Below are positions 34,575 through 43,132 of a stretch of DNA of 64,000 nt, piece by piece. The first letter of the stretch is position 1; every line of letters starts with the position of its first letter. Source of the DNA: Actinomycetales bacterium (GTDB taxonomy: Bacteria; Actinomycetota; Actinomycetes; Actinomycetales; Microbacteriaceae). The translations under genes were made by a program, and so were the position numbers. The notes below the pieces were generated by a model. The model was given only the letters and a program-made list of their open reading frames with translations. It did not search any database and had not been told where the DNA came from. Location of the stretch: assembly GCA_015655415.1 (NCBI GenBank), contig JAATFB010000027.1, forward strand, positions 1 through 64,000, given 5' to 3'.

Positions 34575-36803
34575 TCAGCCGGCGACGGCGTCCTGCACGG
34601 CCACGCTGAAGTTGTCGCGAAACACCGCGTCAGGGTCGTAGCGACGCTTGATCTCTCTCAGCCGGGCGAGAGTGGCGGGCGGGAACGCCTCTTCGACGAC
34701 CTCGGCCCCCTGACGCGACTCGAAGCTCAGGTACAGGCCGTCGAAGTGCTCGGCGAGCTGAATCCAGTGTCGCTCGAACCGGTCGCCGTGACCGATGGCG
34801 GCGATGGAGAAGTTGGCGTAGCGATGGGCGTACGGCGTGGCATCCGGGGGGACGTCCGCGACGGCTCCCCCTACGGATCGGACCTGGAACCACGGCGTCG
34901 AGCCGGACTGCACCAGAGCCGCGCCGGCGCTCGCGACATCGGCGTCGAGATGGGCCACGAGGCCGGAACGGAACCGCGGCTCTCCCTGCCCGTCGTGCGC
35001 GGCATCAGACGCATTCGCCATGACGACCGCATACGGCGCAAGCGACACCTGCTGGCCGATGAGCGGGCCGATCGCGGCGAACGGCTGCAGCCTCTCGATG
35101 ATCGTGTCGGGGTCGCTGGAGTCCACCACGCCGTAGACCTGGCCGACCACATCGCCGCCCCGGCCCTGACGGGCCAGGATGAGGAACAGCGTCGTGTCGC
35201 GCGGCGCCGCCTCCATCGTCTCGCCGAATCGGCGCAGGAAGCCGGCCGTGTCCGAGGCGTCGAACGCGAGCTGCGCCCAGCCGACCTCGCCCACGGCGTC
35301 CACCTCGAACTCGAACGAGACCACGATGCCCACGTTCGCCCCGGCGCCGCGCACCGCCCAGAACAGGTCGGGGTTCTCGTCGGCCGAGGCCCGCACCAGG
35401 GATCCGTCCGCGAGCACGACGTCCGCGGCGACGACGTGGTCGATCGTCAGCCCGTGCTCGCGCGCGAGGAACCCGATGCCGCCGGCCGTCGCCAGGCCGC
35501 CGACCCCCACGCCGCCGTAGTCGCCGCTGGAGAGCGCCCAGCCGTGCGGCTGCAGCGCCTGCGCCACGTCCATCCAGCGGGCGCCGGGGCCGATGCGGAC
35601 GCGCCGCGTGGCCTCGTCGAGCACCTCGATGTCGTTCAGGGCGCCCAGGTCGATGACGATGCCGCCGTCGTTCGTGCTTCGGCCGCTCACGCCGTGACCG
35701 CCGCTGCGGATGCCGAGCGGCACTCCGGGATGCCGCCGCGCGAACGCGAGCGCGTCCACCACCTCGCCCACGGTGCGCGGCCGCAGCACGAGGCCGGGAG
35801 CGCCGGCGCGCATGTAGGTGGACTTCACCGAACGGTAGGCGAAGTCGCCGGGCTCGACCGCGTTCTCCCGCAGAGACTCGGGAACCTCGTCGTACGCGAT
35901 GCCGGGACGCCGTCTCGCCAGGGCGGCGGCACCGCGGCGGGCTCCCACGATCGTTCCACGACGCCTCCGCTCCGACTCGACCGCCTCGCGCACCGCCGGG
36001 ATCGTCTCGTCCGCGAAGCGCTGCAGCATCGTGGGATCGTCGCCCATCACGATGAACGTGCTCACGCCGTCCTCGAGCGCGAACGCCGCAAGCTGATCGA
36101 CGGACACGTCGCCGCCGAGGTTCAGCAGCCTGCGGACCTCGGAGGGATGCCTTCCGGCGTCCGCCGCCGCGTCGTCGATGCGGGCGTTGCCCGCCTGCAG
36201 GTCGCCGGGCTGGAGGTAGGGCAGTGACGGCAGCCAGCCGTCGCCCTTGGCGCCGGTGAGGCGCAGCATCCGCGGTTTGTACGCGCCGATCCAGATCGGG
36301 ACCTCGTGCGCCGGCGACGGGCCGCGCTTCGCGCCCTTCACGGGGTAGTACTGGCCGCCCACCAGCTGGCTGCGAGTGGTGACGTCCCACATGCCGCGGA
36401 TCACGTCGATCGCCTCGCTCAGGGCGTCGACCGACTGTCCGGGAGTCAGGCGCCGACCCCCCATCGCCTCGATCGCGTCCCAGAAGCCGCCGGCGCCCAG
36501 TGCGAGGTCGAACCGTCCCCCCGAGAGCAGGTCGAGGGATGCCGCGGCCCGTGCCAGCACCGGCGCGGGCCGCAGCGGCAGGTTCAGCACGTTCGGCGCG
36601 ATGTGGATGCGCTCGGTCGCGGCGGCGACATAGGAGAGCAGCGTCCACGTGTCGAGGAACGCCGGCTGATAGGGGTGGTCCTGGAACGTCACCAGGTCGT
36701 AGCCGAGCCGCTCGCTCAGCTGCGCGAGTCGCACGGGGTGCTGCGGGCTCGAGTTGACCGGCGTGATGAACGTGCCGAACTGGATCGGGTGGCCATAGTC
36801 CAT
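34575..36803 (-). CDS. LLM-class flavin oxidoreductase fused to a BBE-type FAD oxidase
   Basis: This 742-residue protein is built from two flavoenzymes. Residues 1-285 are a luciferase-like monooxygenase (LLM) domain (PIQFGTFITPVNSSPQHPVR, RIHIAPNVLNLPLRPAPVLA, GGRFDLALGAGGFWDAIEAM). After an Arg-rich linker (about 277-305), residues 320-742 form a PCMH FAD-binding oxidase ending in a berberine-bridge-like C-terminus (RRYDPDAVFRDNFSV). His370 in IRSGGHGVSG is the expected covalent FAD site. The usual second site, Cys in the G.CP.VGVGG loop, is Asp428 (SSGDYGGVGVGG), so flavin should be attached once only. The gene stands alone, with no signal peptide. Substrates are unknown. Confidence 0.87.
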   Translation of the reverse strand: MDYGHPIQFGTFITPVNSSPQHPVRLAQLSERLGYDLVTFQDHPYQPAFLDTWTLLSYVAAATERIHIAPNVLNLPLRPAPVLARAAASLDLLSGGRFDLALGAGGFWDAIEAMGGRRLTPGQSVDALSEAIDVIRGMWDVTTRSQLVGGQYYPVKGAKRGPSPAHEVPIWIGAYKPRMLRLTGAKGDGWLPSLPYLQPGDLQAGNARIDDAAADAGRHPSEVRRLLNLGGDVSVDQLAAFALEDGVSTFIVMGDDPTMLQRFADETIPAVREAVESERRRRGTIVGARRGAAALARRRPGIAYDEVPESLRENAVEPGDFAYRSVKSTYMRAGAPGLVLRPRTVGEVVDALAFARRHPGVPLGIRSGGHGVSGRSTNDGGIVIDLGALNDIEVLDEATRRVRIGPGARWMDVAQALQPHGWALSSGDYGGVGVGGLATAGGIGFLAREHGLTIDHVVAADVVLADGSLVRASADENPDLFWAVRGAGANVGIVVSFEFEVDAVGEVGWAQLAFDASDTAGFLRRFGETMEAAPRDTTLFLILARQGRGGDVVGQVYGVVDSSDPDTIIERLQPFAAIGPLIGQQVSLAPYAVVMANASDAAHDGQGEPRFRSGLVAHLDADVASAGAALVQSGSTPWFQVRSVGGAVADVPPDATPYAHRYANFSIAAIGHGDRFERHWIQLAEHFDGLYLSFESRQGAEVVEEAFPPATLARLREIKRRYDPDAVFRDNFSVAVQDAVAG

Positions 36804-36875: not shown

Positions 36876-39800
36876 TCACCGCGTCGTCCGCCGACGTCGC
36901 ACGCTGAAGGCCGCGGCACCAGCCGCGAGCAGCACCAAGGCACCGATGGCGGCCGCTGCGACATCCGAGCCGGTGGCGGCCAGGCCCGACGCGCCGCCCG
37001 AGCCTGGGCCGGCCGCAGCGCCGCGGGCGCCCGGGTCCGCGGTGCCCACCGTGACGGCGTTCGACGGATCGGAGCGTGCGCCGACACCGACGACGTTCTC
37101 GGCATCGACGGTGAACGTGTAGACGCCCGGGGAAAGGCCCGCCGCGTCGCACGCCGTCGCGGTGCCCGTCGACGTGCAGACGGGCGCCGGATCGGCGACG
37201 GCGGCCGCGACGGCCGCGGAGCGTCGGGAGCGAGCACCATCATCGACCGCCGATGCGAACACGCGGTAGCCGGTGATCTCCGCGCCCCCCGTGTCGTTCG
37301 GGGCCTTCCAGGCCACGTGCACGGTCCCGTGCGCGTCAGCCCTTGCCCGCACGTCCGCGGGCGCACCCGGAACGGACAGACGGGGCTGGGGGTCCCACAC
37401 CGATCCGTACATCGGAATGACCTTCATTGAGTCGACCCTTGCCGTGCCTCCGTCGGCATACAGCGCGACCTTGGTGTCGGAGTCGGCCGGGTAGATCATG
37501 TTCGTCAGGATCCGCTGGCCGTCGCCCGCTATCACCTCCACCGAGCCGCGGTCCACGACGATGTCGAGTGTGAGCTTGCCGTCCACCAGGGACACGGGTG
37601 CGGCGTTCGGCGAGTCGAACTGGTCCGGGGCGGGGATCAGTCCGGAGGCGGATCGATCGATGTAGACCGAAGACGTCGCCGTGTCGTATCCGATCCTCGT
37701 GCCGACGCTGCCGCCGTCGCCGCGCACGACGACGCCGAACCGGCTCGCCGTCTCAGGCGTGAGCACCGCCTCGATCCTCTGCACCGCGCCGTCGGCTTGC
37801 GGTGGCAGGATCGTCACACCCTGCGCTACGTCGCCCGGCCTGACCGTGTACGCAGCGAAGTCCTTCTCGTAGTCCGCCAACTGGTCGACGAACCGGGTGA
37901 CGATCTGCGGCCTGCCGTCTATCGTCTGCAACGAGAGCTCACGCGGAAGCGTCATGTTTCCGCGCCAGGGCGAGGTCGGCGAGGTGAACGCCTGCCCCAT
38001 CCATCCGATGGATATGCGTTTGCCGTCCGGGGCGTCGTTGTAGGTGTTCGAGGCATAGTCGTCCCGCCCCCAGTCCAACTGGTTCAGAATGGGCGCCGGG
38101 TTGGCCTTGGCGGGCTGATCGGACGTCATGAACTGGTCGGCGAGGATGTGACCGAACCCGCCCGTGTTGTTGTCGATGATGGCGATGTGAGCCGTCTTGC
38201 CCTTGAACTGCGAAACGTCCCAGGACGCCCAGTTCAGGAACTCGGCCGCTGGCCCCACATCGCCGTCATTGCTGGGTCCCGTCGTGCTGCGCACGGTCTG
38301 GCCGTCCACGATCAGATCCACGGTGGTCTCCGTGGATCGAGGCAATGCGGGCCGATCGCTCCCTACGACATCATCGACCCAGATGGCTCCCCAGCCGCCG
38401 GTCGCGGTGTCCACCACGCGCAGCTGGGCGCTCTCGCCTTGGTGGCCCGAGACGTCCCAGCTACGCCAGTTCATGAGGTGCGCGTTCGTGCCGGTCTCGC
38501 TTTGCACGACCTTGCCCCCGATGAGGAGCTGGACGGCCAGAGTCTGCCCGCTGCTGTCGTCGCGCTCACCTCCGCCGACGAGGAGGTCGATGTACTTCGT
38601 GTCGATCGTGAACGCGGGAGAGGTGAGCGTGCCGGTGGCGTTGTCGTCTCCGTTGGGCGCGTAGAAGGTGCTGAGGTACCCGTTGCCCTGGAACCCCTGC
38701 GCGACGTTCGGCTGGGGATGCGGTCGTGCGGGTTGATCCGACGCGGCCAGATCGCCCGTTCCCGTCCATCCGTCGTCCGCCAGGGTCCTGCCGGCAGGCT
38801 CTTCGAAGTCGAAGAGCGTGGTCCCGGGCGGCGCCTCACCCGAGCCGGTTCCCGGCTGGCGTGGATGGTTGCCGCCGCCGATCAGGAAGTTGATGTACGA
38901 CGAGTCGATCGTGAAGTCCGGCGAGACCAGAGAGCCGATCGGCGAGTCCCCGTCGAGAAAGCTGTTGACGACGCCCGTTCCGGCGAAGCCGGTGACCTTC
39001 TGCTGGCCGCCGATCGCTCCGGAAGCGGGAGCCCGTCCGAACGGACCGCCGGCGGGGCTGGTCGGGTCGTTGAGCACCGACCATCCGTCGTAGGAGCCGT
39101 CGTCGAACGATTCGAGCACGTCACCGGCCGGGAGAGGTGCGTTCGCGGACGACGTGTCCTCTGTGAACGTCGTGCCGTCGAAGTCTCCGACGATGTAGCT
39201 CTGATGCGCCGCAGCCGTGCTCATCTCCATGACCCATCGCGTCTTCGCCGGGTCCCCGTCGAGCTGAAGCGGGAACAGGTCTGGGCACTCCCAGAAACCC
39301 GGCACGGTGTCCGAGCTGAACGTGCTCATCTGTTCCCAGTGTCTGAGGTCTTTCGACTTGCTGAGGACGATCGTCGACGCGTCGGCCTCGACGGCGACCA
39401 TGACCCAGTAGCCATCGGAGCGGCTGCCGTACCAGAAGACCTTCGGATCCCGGAAGTCTCCGCGGTTCAGGTCGAGGACCGGGTTGCCGGAATACTTCGT
39501 CCAGGTCATGCCATCGTCGACGCTGTAGGCCAGCGACTGGGCCTCACGGTTTCCGTACGTCGGGTCGTCGTGATATTGGCTGGTGTAGATCGCGACCATG
39601 GGCGGATTCGCCTTCGTGCCGAATCCGGATGTGTTGTCACGATCGACCACCGCCGAGCCGGAGTAGATGTACTCGTGCTCCCCCTGCGGGATCGCGACGG
39701 GCTGCATGGTCCAGTGCATCAGGTCCGGAGACGTGGCGTGCCCCCACGACGTGTTGCCCCAGTCGATGCCGTACGGGTTGTGCTGGAAGAAGAGGTGGTA

Positions 39801-40007
39801 GACGCCCTTGTAGTAGACGAGTCCGTTGGGATCGTTGGTCCAGTTCTCATCGGGGGAGAAGTGCAGGTACGGGCGATACGGTTCCTGTCCCAGGCCGCTC
39901 GACGGGGTGTCGGCGGCTGCAGCGGACGTGCCCGTCAGCCCGGCGCCGACCAGCGCGGCGACACTCACGGCGAGAGCCATCGCTCGTAGCCCGAGAGCCT
40001 TCTTCAT
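36876..40007 (-). CDS. Secreted cell-wall GH32 fructanase (levanase/inulinase type) with a large inserted region
   Basis: This 1043-residue exported glycoside hydrolase should cleave beta-fructosides (levan, inulin or sucrose ends). A signal peptide covers about 1-32. The catalytic triad is present: nucleophile Asp59 in NWTNDPNG, Asp187 in FRDPKV and acid Glu240 in FWECPD. The propeller is interrupted at about 297-637 by non-GH32 sequence and resumes at DWGRDDYASNTYNDAPDGKR. The GH32 beta-sandwich follows (about 690-865), then one fibronectin type III domain (about 880-985), and LAATGSD at 1009 with a hydrophobic span and Arg tail (sortase anchor). It lies 79 bp after the fructose-type ABC ATPase gene and has its own LacI operator. 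Confidence 0.93.
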   Translation of the reverse strand: MKKALGLRAMALAVSVAALVGAGLTGTSAAAADTPSSGLGQEPYRPYLHFSPDENWTNDPNGLVYYKGVYHLFFQHNPYGIDWGNTSWGHATSPDLMHWTMQPVAIPQGEHEYIYSGSAVVDRDNTSGFGTKANPPMVAIYTSQYHDDPTYGNREAQSLAYSVDDGMTWTKYSGNPVLDLNRGDFRDPKVFWYGSRSDGYWVMVAVEADASTIVLSKSKDLRHWEQMSTFSSDTVPGFWECPDLFPLQLDGDPAKTRWVMEMSTAAAHQSYIVGDFDGTTFTEDTSSANAPLPAGDVLESFDDGSYDGWSVLNDPTSPAGGPFGRAPASGAIGGQQKVTGFAGTGVVNSFLDGDSPIGSLVSPDFTIDSSYINFLIGGGNHPRQPGTGSGEAPPGTTLFDFEEPAGRTLADDGWTGTGDLAASDQPARPHPQPNVAQGFQGNGYLSTFYAPNGDDNATGTLTSPAFTIDTKYIDLLVGGGERDDSSGQTLAVQLLIGGKVVQSETGTNAHLMNWRSWDVSGHQGESAQLRVVDTATGGWGAIWVDDVVGSDRPALPRSTETTVDLIVDGQTVRSTTGPSNDGDVGPAAEFLNWASWDVSQFKGKTAHIAIIDNNTGGFGHILADQFMTSDQPAKANPAPILNQLDWGRDDYASNTYNDAPDGKRISIGWMGQAFTSPTSPWRGNMTLPRELSLQTIDGRPQIVTRFVDQLADYEKDFAAYTVRPGDVAQGVTILPPQADGAVQRIEAVLTPETASRFGVVVRGDGGSVGTRIGYDTATSSVYIDRSASGLIPAPDQFDSPNAAPVSLVDGKLTLDIVVDRGSVEVIAGDGQRILTNMIYPADSDTKVALYADGGTARVDSMKVIPMYGSVWDPQPRLSVPGAPADVRARADAHGTVHVAWKAPNDTGGAEITGYRVFASAVDDGARSRRSAAVAAAVADPAPVCTSTGTATACDAAGLSPGVYTFTVDAENVVGVGARSDPSNAVTVGTADPGARGAAAGPGSGGASGLAATGSDVAAAAIGALVLLAAGAAAFSVRRRRTTR

Positions 40008-40086: not shown

Positions 40087-40890
40087 TCACGACACGGTGG
40101 TCGCTCCGGTCATGATCGCCACCGCGTCGGTCATCGAGTGGGAACGGGGGGTGATGGTGGCGGCTCGCTTCCCCAGCCGTTGGATGTGGATGCGGTCGGC
40201 GACGTCGAACACCTGGGGCATGTTGTGCGAGATCAGGATCACGGGGACGCCGCCGTCCCTCAGTCTCTTGATGAGCTCGAGCACCTGATTGGATTCGCGC
40301 ACGCCCAGTGCCGCCGTCGGCTCGTCGAGGACGACGACCTTCGATCCGAACGCGGCGGCTCTGGCGACGGCCACCGCCTGACGCTGGCCACCGGAGAGAT
40401 TCTCGACCGGCACGGTCACGTCCTGGAGCGTGGAGATCCCCAACTCCTGCAGCTCGTGCTTGGCCTGCTCGCGCATTCCTCGCGTGTCCAGCATGCGAAG
40501 CACGCCACCCAGGAACCCCCGTTTGCGGCGTTCCCGTCCGAGATACAGATTGGACGCCACGTCGAGCGATGGCGCCACGGCGAGGGATTGATAGACGGTC
40601 TCGATTCCGGCCTCCCGGGCATCCTGGGGCCGACGGAAGTGCACGCGCTGCCCATCGAGCAGGATCGCTCCCTCGTCGGGCACTTCGGCGCCGGTGAGGC
40701 ACTTGATCAGCGTGGTCTTTCCCGCCCCGTTGTCGCCGATGACGGCCAGTACCTCGCCGGGGTACAGCTCCAGGCTGACGCCGTCGAGCCCGACCACGTT
40801 GCCGTACGTCTTGACCAGATTCCTGGCCTCGAGGACAGGCGCGGAGGTGCCCGCCGCGACGGTCGTGCGGTCTGATGGAGTGCGAGTCAC
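40087..40890 (-). CDS. CUT2 ABC transporter ATP-binding protein (Frc-like, single domain)
   Basis: This 267-residue ATPase powers sugar import. Walker A is GDNGAGKTTL, the signature is ENLSGGQRQAVAVARAAA, Walker B is VVVLDEPTAALG and the switch His is in LISHNMPQV. It is a single-domain protein, as in the fructose transporter FrcA, rather than the double-domain RbsA. GTG 40890 overlaps the permease stop (GTGA). The longer open frame upstream runs through the permease gene and is not used. Last of the binding protein-permease-ATPase set. Confidence 0.93.
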   Translation of the reverse strand: MTRTPSDRTTVAAGTSAPVLEARNLVKTYGNVVGLDGVSLELYPGEVLAVIGDNGAGKTTLIKCLTGAEVPDEGAILLDGQRVHFRRPQDAREAGIETVYQSLAVAPSLDVASNLYLGRERRKRGFLGGVLRMLDTRGMREQAKHELQELGISTLQDVTVPVENLSGGQRQAVAVARAAAFGSKVVVLDEPTAALGVRESNQVLELIKRLRDGGVPVILISHNMPQVFDVADRIHIQRLGKRAATITPRSHSMTDAVAIMTGATTVS

Positions 40891-41945
40891 TTGCGGGCCT
40901 TTCTGATCCACTGATCGATCGCTACGGCGACGATCACCAGCACGCCGACCGCGAGCGTCTGATACAGCACGTCGAGGCCGGCCAAGGCCAGGCCGTTGCG
41001 GAAGACGCCGACGATGAGGGCGCCGAGGAGTGTGCCCCAGATCGTGCCGCGCCCGCCGAAGAGACTGGTCCCGCCGATGACCACCGCGGTGATGGAGTCG
41101 AGGTTGACGTCTGCGGCGGCGTTGGGGCTCGCCGCGAACGAGCGGCCGATCTGAACCCATGCGCCCAGCGCCAGGATCCCCCCTGCCGCGATATAGACGC
41201 TGATCAGGAGGCTGTTGACGCGGATGCCGGTGAGCCGTGCAGCTTCCTTGTCATCGCCGACCGCGTACACGTGTCTACCCCACGCGGTACGTCCGAGGAT
41301 GAACGCCACCACGATGTACAGCAGGATCATCAAGACGACGCCGTAGGAGAAGTCCACTCCTCCGACACGAAAGGTGTCGCCGGTCCAGGTGAGCAGGTTC
41401 GGCAGCTGGGATCCCTGGATCGTTGCGCCGTTGCTCACCAGCAGCGTCAGTGCCGTGAAGACGCTCAGCGTTCCCAGCGTGACGATGAACGGCGGCAGCT
41501 TCAGACGTGTGACGAGAACACCGTTGAGGGCGCCTGCGAGAAGCCCGACCACCAGGCCGCCGACCAGGCCCAGCCACGGCGGGACTCCTCGGGCGATGGC
41601 GGCCTGGCTCATGACGATCGAGCTGAACACCATGATGGCGCCGACGGAGAGGTCGATGCCGGCCGTGAGGATCACCAGCGTCTGGGCGACGCCGAGTGTC
41701 CCGATGACAGCCACCTGTTGAGTGATGAGCGAAAGATTCGCGGGGGCCCAGAATCGCCCATTGATGAGCCCGAACACGACGACGGCGAGCAGAAGGACGA
41801 CGCCTGGGCTTATCGCCGGATATCGGTGCAGGGTGCTCCGCACCGCGCTCAGCGGCGTTCTGCGGGCGAGGAATTCACGGGCCAGGTCGGGCTGCGCACC
41901 GACGGTGTCGGAGACTCCGCGTTCTCGCGTGGAAGGCTGGCTCAC
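40887..41945 (-). CDS. CUT2 sugar ABC transporter permease (RbsC/FrcC-like)
   Basis: This 352-residue permease has about ten membrane helices, including LVILTAGIDLSVGAIMVFSS, the most conserved stretch of the RbsC family, and GGRGTIWGTLLGALIVGVF near the C-terminus. The start is GTG 41945 with AAAGGAG 7 nt upstream. It lies 92 bp after the binding-protein gene and is coupled to the ATPase gene. It should form a homodimeric pore for fructose or a similar monosaccharide released by the fructanase. Confidence 0.93.
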   Translation of the reverse strand: MSQPSTRERGVSDTVGAQPDLAREFLARRTPLSAVRSTLHRYPAISPGVVLLLAVVVFGLINGRFWAPANLSLITQQVAVIGTLGVAQTLVILTAGIDLSVGAIMVFSSIVMSQAAIARGVPPWLGLVGGLVVGLLAGALNGVLVTRLKLPPFIVTLGTLSVFTALTLLVSNGATIQGSQLPNLLTWTGDTFRVGGVDFSYGVVLMILLYIVVAFILGRTAWGRHVYAVGDDKEAARLTGIRVNSLLISVYIAAGGILALGAWVQIGRSFAASPNAAADVNLDSITAVVIGGTSLFGGRGTIWGTLLGALIVGVFRNGLALAGLDVLYQTLAVGVLVIVAVAIDQWIRKARK

Positions 41946-42037
41946 TGGTGTCGCTCCTTTGCGTCTGTGCCAGATCGTCGAGGTCCTCGCCGGGTCGTCG
42001 CCTGCGGCGACGACCCGGCGGAGGGGCAGGGCGACGA

Positions 42038-43132
42038 CTAGTTCTTCCAGCAGATCTGACTGCCCTGCTGCGAGTCGATGCTCTTGAGCCCCGGCACGGG
42101 CTTGTCCGTGATCAGCTGCGATCCCGTGTCGTGAAAGTTCAATCCCTCGCTGGTCGTCGGCTTCTTGCCGGTCTTGGCCAGCTTGACAATCGCCTTCATC
42201 CCGTCAGCTGCCATCTTCGATGGGTATTGCTGGCTGGTGGCGCCGAGGATGCCCTGCTTCACGTAACCGACCCCGGTGCATCCGCCATCGATCGAGACGA
42301 GGAGCACGCCGCTGGTCTTGCCCGCGGCCTTGAGCGCCTGGTAGGCGCCGTAGGCGGCCGGCTCGTTGATGGCGTACGCCACATTGACATCCGGATTCTT
42401 CGAGAGGATCGTCTCCATCGCAGTGCGGCCCCCGTCTTCGGCTCCGTTGGAGGCCTGATGCCCTGCGATCACGTAGTCGCCTCCCTTTCCTCCCGTGTAC
42501 TTGCCGGAGGGCGCCTCCGAGCCGTTTTTGTTCTTGTTCGGCACATCGATGCCCATCCCGGTGAGGAAACCGGTGTCCCGGTTGTAGTCCACCGAGATGT
42601 TCTGCGTCGCGTTGAGGTCCACCATCGCGATGACGGCCTTCTTGCCGTCGAGTTGTGCCGCGGTCCACTTGCCGATCGCCTGTCCGGCCTTGAAGTTGTT
42701 CGTGGCGTAGGTGATGTCGACCGTGTTCGCGGGATCCGGGACGGTGTCGAGCGCGATCACGTACACACCGGCCTTGCGAGCCTTCTGGATCTCGTTGTTG
42801 ACCGCAGGGCCGTTCGGTGTGATGAGAATGCCCTTGTCACCCCGCGAGATGGCGTTCTCTATCGCCTGGATCTGGGTGTCGGTGTCGCCGTCCTCCTTGC
42901 CCGCGGCAAGGGTGAGGTCGACTCCGTCCTTCTTCGCCGCGGACTTGGCCGCGGTCTCCATCGCGACGAAGTAGGGATTGCTGGTGGTCTTGACGATGAG
43001 GGAGACGCCGACCTTGTCGGAGCCAGATCCAGATCCCGAGCAGCCGGCCAGTGATGCGGCCGCGAATGCCGCGACGATCGCGGTCGCGGACGCCCGCTTC
43101 GCCCATGGAGGAAGTGCTGTGCGATTCGACAT
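42038..43132 (-). CDS. Fructose-type sugar-binding lipoprotein (FrcB/RbsB-like)
   Basis: This 364-residue periplasmic-binding-protein-like lipoprotein has a lipobox ASLAGC with Cys31 and a Ser/Gly linker. The type I sugar-binding fold shows VGVSLIVKTTSNPYFVAMET, GILITPNGPAVNNEIQKA and VIALDTVPDP. The insert around NKNKNGSEAPSGKYTGGKGG resembles the fructose-binding FrcB group. ATG 43132 has GAAGGAGAAGG upstream. Being next to a fructanase and under the same operator supports fructose as ligand. Confidence 0.9.
   Translation of the reverse strand: MSNRTALPPWAKRASATAIVAAFAAASLAGCSGSGSGSDKVGVSLIVKTTSNPYFVAMETAAKSAAKKDGVDLTLAAGKEDGDTDTQIQAIENAISRGDKGILITPNGPAVNNEIQKARKAGVYVIALDTVPDPANTVDITYATNNFKAGQAIGKWTAAQLDGKKAVIAMVDLNATQNISVDYNRDTGFLTGMGIDVPNKNKNGSEAPSGKYTGGKGGDYVIAGHQASNGAEDGGRTAMETILSKNPDVNVAYAINEPAAYGAYQALKAAGKTSGVLLVSIDGGCTGVGYVKQGILGATSQQYPSKMAADGMKAIVKLAKTGKKPTTSEGLNFHDTGSQLITDKPVPGLKSIDSQQGSQICWKN

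Follow-up and report, generated by a model that had tools for sequence, protein, structure and literature searches.

The window, that is, the whole stretch of 64,000 nucleotides analysed here (contig JAATFB010000027.1 of assembly GCA_015655415.1, an Actinomycetales bacterium of the Microbacteriaceae), carries on its minus strand a gene for a glycoside hydrolase family 32 (GH32) fructan hydrolase whose catalytic propeller is interrupted by a large insert. The insert holds two related copies of one module, an outer copy that is split into an N-half and a C-half and an inner copy that is intact, and the inner copy almost certainly lies nested within the outer one. The features of the gene are as follows.

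36876..40007, minus strand: gene for a GH32 fructan hydrolase, 1043 amino acids (open reading frame and Pfam)
39912..40007, minus strand: N-terminal signal-peptide-like segment, residues 1-32 (read off the sequence by eye)
39138..39878, minus strand: first part of the GH32 propeller, residues 44-290 (Pfam and alignment to solved GH32 structures)
38862..39131, minus strand: N-half of the outer module, residues 293-382 (repeat alignment and profiles)
38346..38828, minus strand: inner module, intact, residues 394-554 (repeat alignment and profiles)
38109..38333, minus strand: C-half of the outer module, residues 559-633 (repeat alignment and profiles)
37419..38084, minus strand: remainder of GH32 (end of the propeller and C-terminal beta-sandwich), residues 642-863 (Pfam, solved relatives and profiles)
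37059..37364, minus strand: fibronectin type III domain (fn3), residues 882-983 (Pfam)
36888..36986, minus strand: C-terminal LAxTG-like anchor and membrane segment, residues 1008-1040 (NCBIfam NF058582, 23.7 bits, below its cut-off of 27)

Pfam matched GH32N at residues 49-290 (276.2 bits, cut-off 22.1) and GH32C at residues 740-863 (97.8 bits, cut-off 21.9), identifying both the N-domain and the C-domain of GH32. D59 (in NDPN), D187 (RDP) and E240 (ECP), which we take to be the catalytic residues of GH32, are present and are invariant across 19 aligned sequences, that of the window included. The GH32 exo-inulinases/levanases 1Y4W and 8I12 share this catalytic domain and these residues, and the window protein aligns with them throughout the catalytic unit except for the insert. 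Among solved structures 8i12 scored best, with alignments to residues 40-284 and 643-859, and 1y4w aligns up to residue 287 and resumes at 641; at the insertion site they have 18 and 7 chain residues, respectively, whereas the window protein has about 355. The insertion site is presumably the loop that joins propeller blades four and five. At its C-terminus the protein has a segment similar to a sortase-type LAxTG anchor, and the gene product is probably a secreted, wall-anchored fructan hydrolase.

Alignment of the joined outer halves with the inner copy gave a Smith-Waterman score of 230, compared with 67 for the best of 2000 shuffles, and each half scored above all shuffles when aligned by itself (outer N-half, 101, best shuffle 64; outer C-half, 142, best shuffle 57). 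With blastp, the joined outer halves were 39% identical to the inner copy over 127 columns. The match between the halves of the split domain and those of the intact copy, first noticed in a sequence-only reading of the locus, was thereby borne out. A single-domain profile built from 54 contiguous copies, including the window's own inner copy, aligned to the gene in three nearly abutting matches, which covered profile positions 1-86, then 1-155 and then 88-155. This order indicates a single domain that is cut at 86/88 and carries a complete second copy in the cut, and we consider it the strongest single piece of evidence for nesting. The inner copy is located between the outer segments YINFLIGGG and TTVDLIVDG, and the boundaries proposed by the sequence-only reading (297-380, 397-552 and 560-637) fall within a few residues of the profile boundaries (293-382, 394-554 and 559-633). 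At the level of the sequence, we regard the linear order GH32-N1-N2-C1-C2-GH32, in which N1 and C2 are the outer halves and N2 and C1 the inner ones, and the homology of the halves as established. In the window's assembly (87.6% complete), the profile matched only this gene at E up to 0.01.

The lengths of the linkers between N-half and C-half point in the same direction. The median linker was 4 residues in the inner copy (n=68), 4.5 residues in inserted single copies (n=8) and 5 residues in single copies at the C-terminus (n=3), and in every nested protein a whole copy separates the outer halves. A natural variant was found in L107 (L numbers denote collected loci), a GH32 with a single insert. 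Its halves share 83% and 84% identity with the outer halves of the nested protein L120, and 42% and 59% with the inner halves. At the DNA level, positions 5-265 of L107 aligned to 5-265 of L120 at 90.8% identity and positions 264-467 to 738-941 at 86.3%, and the aligned blocks flank, in frame, a 474-bp stretch that comprises the inner copy and its linkers; a third, weaker match (73%) was to the inner copy itself. The corresponding in-frame difference from the nested L079 is 471 bp. L107 and its nested relatives therefore differ by the clean in-frame presence or absence of the inner copy, and the direction of the change may be either way. The idea that L107 carries an excision scar was dropped, because an identical junction is expected if L107 kept the older state. 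Profile order, linkers and the L107 variant, together with the distance correlations described below, argue strongly that copy B sits in a loop of copy A, which is itself inserted in GH32, as the sequence-only reading had proposed.

To place the gene among its relatives, open frames in the collected loci were classified with half-domain and GH32 profiles, and GH32 proteins with distinct catalytic parts were counted. A nested insert was found in 70 GH32 proteins, one inserted copy in 11 (two of them on one Catenovulum plasmid) and two side-by-side copies at the insertion site in one (L110). Three proteins had a nested pair and three a single copy at the C-terminus, three had other arrangements, and 19 had no copy (16 in rows coded gh and 3 in rows coded ghh). 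These totals over all loci are biased towards nested forms, as the query was mostly a nested protein or insert. The sequence comparison confirms that the nested insertion is real and conserved beyond this one gene, because 70 distinct collected proteins share the arrangement. The nested form occurs in 11 family codes and also, under names that do not map onto those codes, in two Micromonospora genomes and on four plasmid records, three from Streptomyces and one from Actinomyces oris. On a fifth plasmid, Arthrobacter NZ_AP024648.1 (L042), a nested GH32 is split over two frames of 591 and 349 aa, which is likely a frameshift or a pseudogene. No triple nest was found among the open frames scanned in the collected loci.

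A class-wide search with the single-domain profile gave a match in 26 of 345 genomes. This search is less biased, yet the profile consists largely of inner copies and only part of the matches was classified; of the 13 GH32 genes classified as carrying the module as an insert, 10 showed the nested form and 3 a single copy, and another GH32 had one copy at its C-terminus. The arrangement, taken at first to be rare, is therefore the commoner one among these inserted-module genes. In a first family search, a GH32 match at E 1e-30 or better, insert present or not, was obtained in 49 of 299 genomes, and at that threshold four other genomes of the window's own genus gave no match. Viral contigs searched with the insert and with a single-insert GH32 yielded no relative, and those searched with the GH32 core yielded two loci, L123 and L124, both without the module; phage records searched with the insert yielded none.

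Several of the collected loci deserve separate mention. In L110 (open reading frame at 788, minus strand), the two side-by-side copies span residues 518-821 and are 91% and 94% identical by halves; the pair is a recent tandem duplication. The nested-insert GH32s of L016, L017 and L019 lack the segment around QYNP and read WIGDPNG for WMNDPNG and WEMPD for WECPD, and by these sequence differences they form a divergent subgroup. On a Sinorhizobium sojae plasmid (L040:4001-4189), a module C-half occurs without a recognised N-half, possibly as a remnant of a lost gene.

The fold of the module was examined by structure prediction. The inner copy was modelled with an alignment whose extra rows were the half-copies of the window and of two Micromonospora proteins. 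The model had a mean predicted local distance difference test (pLDDT) score of 71.0 and a predicted template modelling (pTM) score of 0.73, with four strands contributed by the N-half and five by the C-half. With Foldseek, 34 chains reached E 0.001 or better; a MAM domain headed the list, which also included the carbohydrate-binding module (CBM) families CBM27, CBM61, CBM35, CBM36 and CBM51, and VIA-align gave Z values up to 9.0, with CBM16, CBM61, CBM4, CBM29 and CBM27 at 8.0-8.7. The structural matches cover model residues 16-170 and thus both halves together, and a half-module is therefore unlikely to be a domain by itself. Several observations weigh against the assignment to CBM-like folds and against the wider model. 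An AlphaFold model of residues 38-868 from a three-row alignment was unusable (mean pLDDT 44.4, pTM 0.31), and the inner-copy model is of moderate confidence. TM-scores of the latter to isolated solved CBMs were about 0.4-0.6, its VIA Z values lie close to the 7-8 that the tool gives as usual when a model has no clear match, and sandwiches other than CBMs (MAM, ephrin-receptor and toxin domains) scored equally high. On balance, the predicted structure makes a CBM-like beta-sandwich of about 155 residues quite probable.

Comparison with named families gave little. Scans of 54 copies with Pfam and NCBIfam revealed no convincing named family. Pfam CBM_35 (PF16990) matched 5 of the 54 copies at E up to 1 (best E 3.5e-4), a weak result that also counts against a firm assignment, and the one score listed for them, 16.4 bits, is below the curated cut-off of 28. 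A sequence search of the PDB with the module profiles gave short, chance-like matches only, and levanase CBM66 chains were not among them at E up to 1 or up to 10. A bean amylase inhibitor (E 0.0056 in the PDB search) was taken as a chance match, its best stretch being 27 residues, and so were Pfam Cna_B in 3 of 19 inserts (weak, best E 4.4e-4) and the scattered single Pfam hits and NCBIfam matches of the copies.

The module is not confined to GH32. It was found inside the GH81 proteins L100 (residues 186-331) and L103 (residues 218-363), between an N-terminal region and Pfam GH81C, and as a tandem pair between the parts of the GH116 proteins L142 (residues 312-628) and L139; in L115 it precedes GH116. 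A distant branch of the module occurs in L114 as a tandem N-C-N-C pair ahead of LamG and GH32. In a Pseudalkalibacillus GH32 (L118:1947-5531), an insert of about 480 residues contains a 3-keto-disaccharide-hydrolase-like domain and one weak module copy, and a stretch of it matches the solved levanase fragments 4azz (residues 347-509), 4b1l and 4b1m, which we take to be the fructan-binding CBM66. A Catenovulum protein (L039:20256-22295) and L148 have the module without a recognised enzyme part. By a heuristic criterion, 68 of 70 nested and 11 of 11 single-insert GH32s have a hydrophobic segment ahead of their catalytic part, compared with 2 of 16 gh rows and none of 3 ghh rows among the plain GH32s. 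At certain W, D and H positions the 54 copies show no variation or almost none. Taken together, these features favour glycan binding outside the cell, whichever glycan may be the ligand.

Binding of carbohydrate by the modules is predicted, and we give it a slight preference. Two observations speak against it or narrow it: the inner copy of the window reads GWGAI, whereas most copies have GWGH with a nearly invariant H, and the presence of the module in GH81, in GH116 and in a small number of proteins where no enzyme part was recognised argues against specificity for fructan. Because GH81 and GH116 enzymes are interrupted by it as well, the module may have a range wider than fructan, and the suggestion of the sequence-only reading that these may be fructan-binding modules fares less well than its proposal of nesting; fructan is a candidate ligand that we put forward tentatively. 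The leading alternative is that the inserts are structural and not sugar-binding, serving as spacers, dimerisation elements or protease-resistance elements that were kept because they are harmless. A fold match demonstrates no function, ligand binding being only predicted, the inner copy can be missing without disruption of the host frame (as in L107), and some GH32s of the same family have no copy at all. On the other side, the module occurs mostly in predicted glycoside hydrolases (L039:20256-22295 and L148 being the exceptions) and in GH32s with an N-terminal hydrophobic segment, L118 has it beside a stretch that matches levanase fragments presumed to be CBM66, and its W, D and H positions are conserved. 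We consider a purely structural role improbable, though it deserves real weight.

Somewhat less credible still is the proposal that the module is CBM38, the module with which cycloinulo-oligosaccharide fructanotransferase binds inulin and levan, or belongs to a remote branch of CBM38, and is hence a domain already known. In PMC10076258, CBM38 is described as spanning residues 32-389 of a GH32 enzyme in the form of two beta-sandwiches, and the tandem N-C-N-C pair ahead of LamG and GH32 in L114 also counts in favour; the Pfam and NCBIfam scans, however, returned no convincing named family, and we regard the identity as unlikely.

The pairing of the halves was analysed by correlating pairwise distances among 54 non-redundant nested proteins, in which relatedness inflates all values. 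The nested pairs gave r 0.632 (N1-C2) and r 0.708 (N2-C1), compared with r 0.511 (N1-C1) and r 0.469 (N2-C2) for the interleaved pairs; in bootstraps the summed nested-minus-interleaved difference was above zero in 2000 of 2000 replicates, and both single comparisons were in 1889 of 2000. When outer and inner halves were compared with the inserted single copy nearest to them, the outer one was the closer in 47 of 68 proteins for the N-half and in 52 of 68 for the C-half, which suggests that the lone insert corresponds to the outer copy in most cases but not in all. That the halves are instead interleaved, N1 pairing with C1 and N2 with C2 as intertwined domains from separate duplications of the N-half and the C-half, is permitted by the linear order N-N-C-C taken alone and is favoured by the strong correlation of N1 and N2 distances (r 0.733), a point against nesting, but it is very improbable in view of an inner linker as long as in single-copy modules, the presence or absence of the inner copy as one clean unit in L107, the higher correlations of the nested pairs and the proximity of the outer halves to the lone insert (not so in 21 proteins for the N-half and 16 for the C-half).

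Given nesting, the history of the inner copy was traced in trees. In copy trees, many outer copies group with single inserts, and the inner copies are spread over several clades. In one copy tree, from which rows of 20 loci had been omitted as near-copies or distant, the copies of family code f76 and Actinomyces oris, inner and outer alike, join at 97, on a starred branch. A single clade of all inserted inner copies was not rejected by the approximately unbiased (AU) test with 131 rows (p 0.101), nor with 110 rows (p 0.607), where the constrained tree scored higher. On a tree of the GH32 host (94 rows, long branches flagged), which excluded short rows and those with two or more GH32 N-parts, the nested label requires 8 changes, 5 of them forced by starred branches; these changes may be losses or exchanges as well as gains. 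Between L086 and L109, two loci of genome G1205, the lone N-half shares 86% identity with the inner N-half of the other gene but the C-half only 61%, which suggests exchange between paralogues. The inner copy was probably gained, lost or exchanged more than once, and nesting may have had one origin or several.

Related arrangements have been described in other systems. In PMC10076258, CBM38 and CBM66 are named as the only reported inulin- or levan-binding domains, and DUF4960 is proposed as a new one. CBM66 of the Bacillus subtilis levanase SacC and CBM38 of a P. macerans GH32 fructanotransferase are likewise beta-sandwich modules attached to GH32, but in the excerpts of PMC10076258 neither is described as a nested insert, and CBM38 is set beside our module by its description only. 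According to PMC7848910, the GH10 xylanases Pm25 and Xyn10C have two CBM4 modules inserted in tandem in the barrel. As in the window enzyme, a pair of related CBM or CBM-like modules interrupts the catalytic domain, which stays active in Pm25 and Xyn10C; their modules are tandem, whereas those of the window are nested, and the side-by-side form is found in the L110 GH32. Insertions are reported in 20% of multidomain proteins, and recursive nesting reaches six levels in Si3 of cyanobacterial RNA polymerase, many of the inserted domains being hybrid motifs (PMC13114784). Si3 differs in fold and in enzyme, and the window family keeps coexisting states (none, single, tandem, nested and inner-less), so that the step is traceable. 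Nesting of related domains is therefore already known in principle, and the window case is one of a self-nested CBM-like module in glycoside hydrolases. A literature search, with most subscription journals outside its coverage, found no description of such a self-nested module or of a nested insert in GH32.

The neighbourhood of the gene contains the following group on the same strand.

40087..43132, minus strand, upstream of the fructanase: sugar ATP-binding cassette (ABC) transporter genes for a substrate-binding protein, a permease and an ATPase (NCBIfam)

The transporter genes match ribose/allose/galactofuranose-type NCBIfam models, all below the model cut-offs. Downstream of the fructanase, at 34575-36803 of the window (minus strand), lies a 742-aa open reading frame that is a fusion of two oxidoreductase-like parts, an LLM-class oxidoreductase-like part at about residues 20-280 and a part resembling oxidases linked to flavin adenine dinucleotide at about residues 315-735, both below the NCBIfam cut-offs.

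These results suggest how the enzyme may work. N1 and C2 would fold together as one sandwich from which the inner one is looped out, and each module would bind glycan. The nest would form a compact two-module arm, tied to the catalytic domain by two short linkers, and the arm, placed near the entrance of the active site, could keep the enzyme on its polymeric substrate; the released sugar may be imported by the neighbouring ABC transporter. A nested CBM-like arm on a secreted fructan hydrolase is, as a whole, the explanation that we consider likely. We read the module as an unnamed CBM-like unit that inserts into glycoside hydrolase loops and also into a loop of its own sibling. A broader proposal, which we advance with more doubt than confidence, is that this unnamed carbohydrate-binding-type module may be a recurrent inserter that has settled in loops of enzymes from at least three families of glycoside hydrolases (GH32, GH81 and GH116) and, repeatedly, in its own sibling at one preferred loop, and that close relatives still show where the inner copy was gained, lost or exchanged.

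If this is true, self-nesting would be a general and repeatable way to double binding modules without longer chain ends. A frequent module of secreted enzymes is here without a convincing Pfam or NCBIfam name, and its design of loop and linkers may be of use to protein engineers for adding a domain inside a domain. One enzyme family offers a natural series, with no copy, a single copy, side-by-side copies, a nested pair, a C-terminal nested pair and an inner-less variant, which could be used to test the steps, the cost and the benefit of recursive domain insertion.

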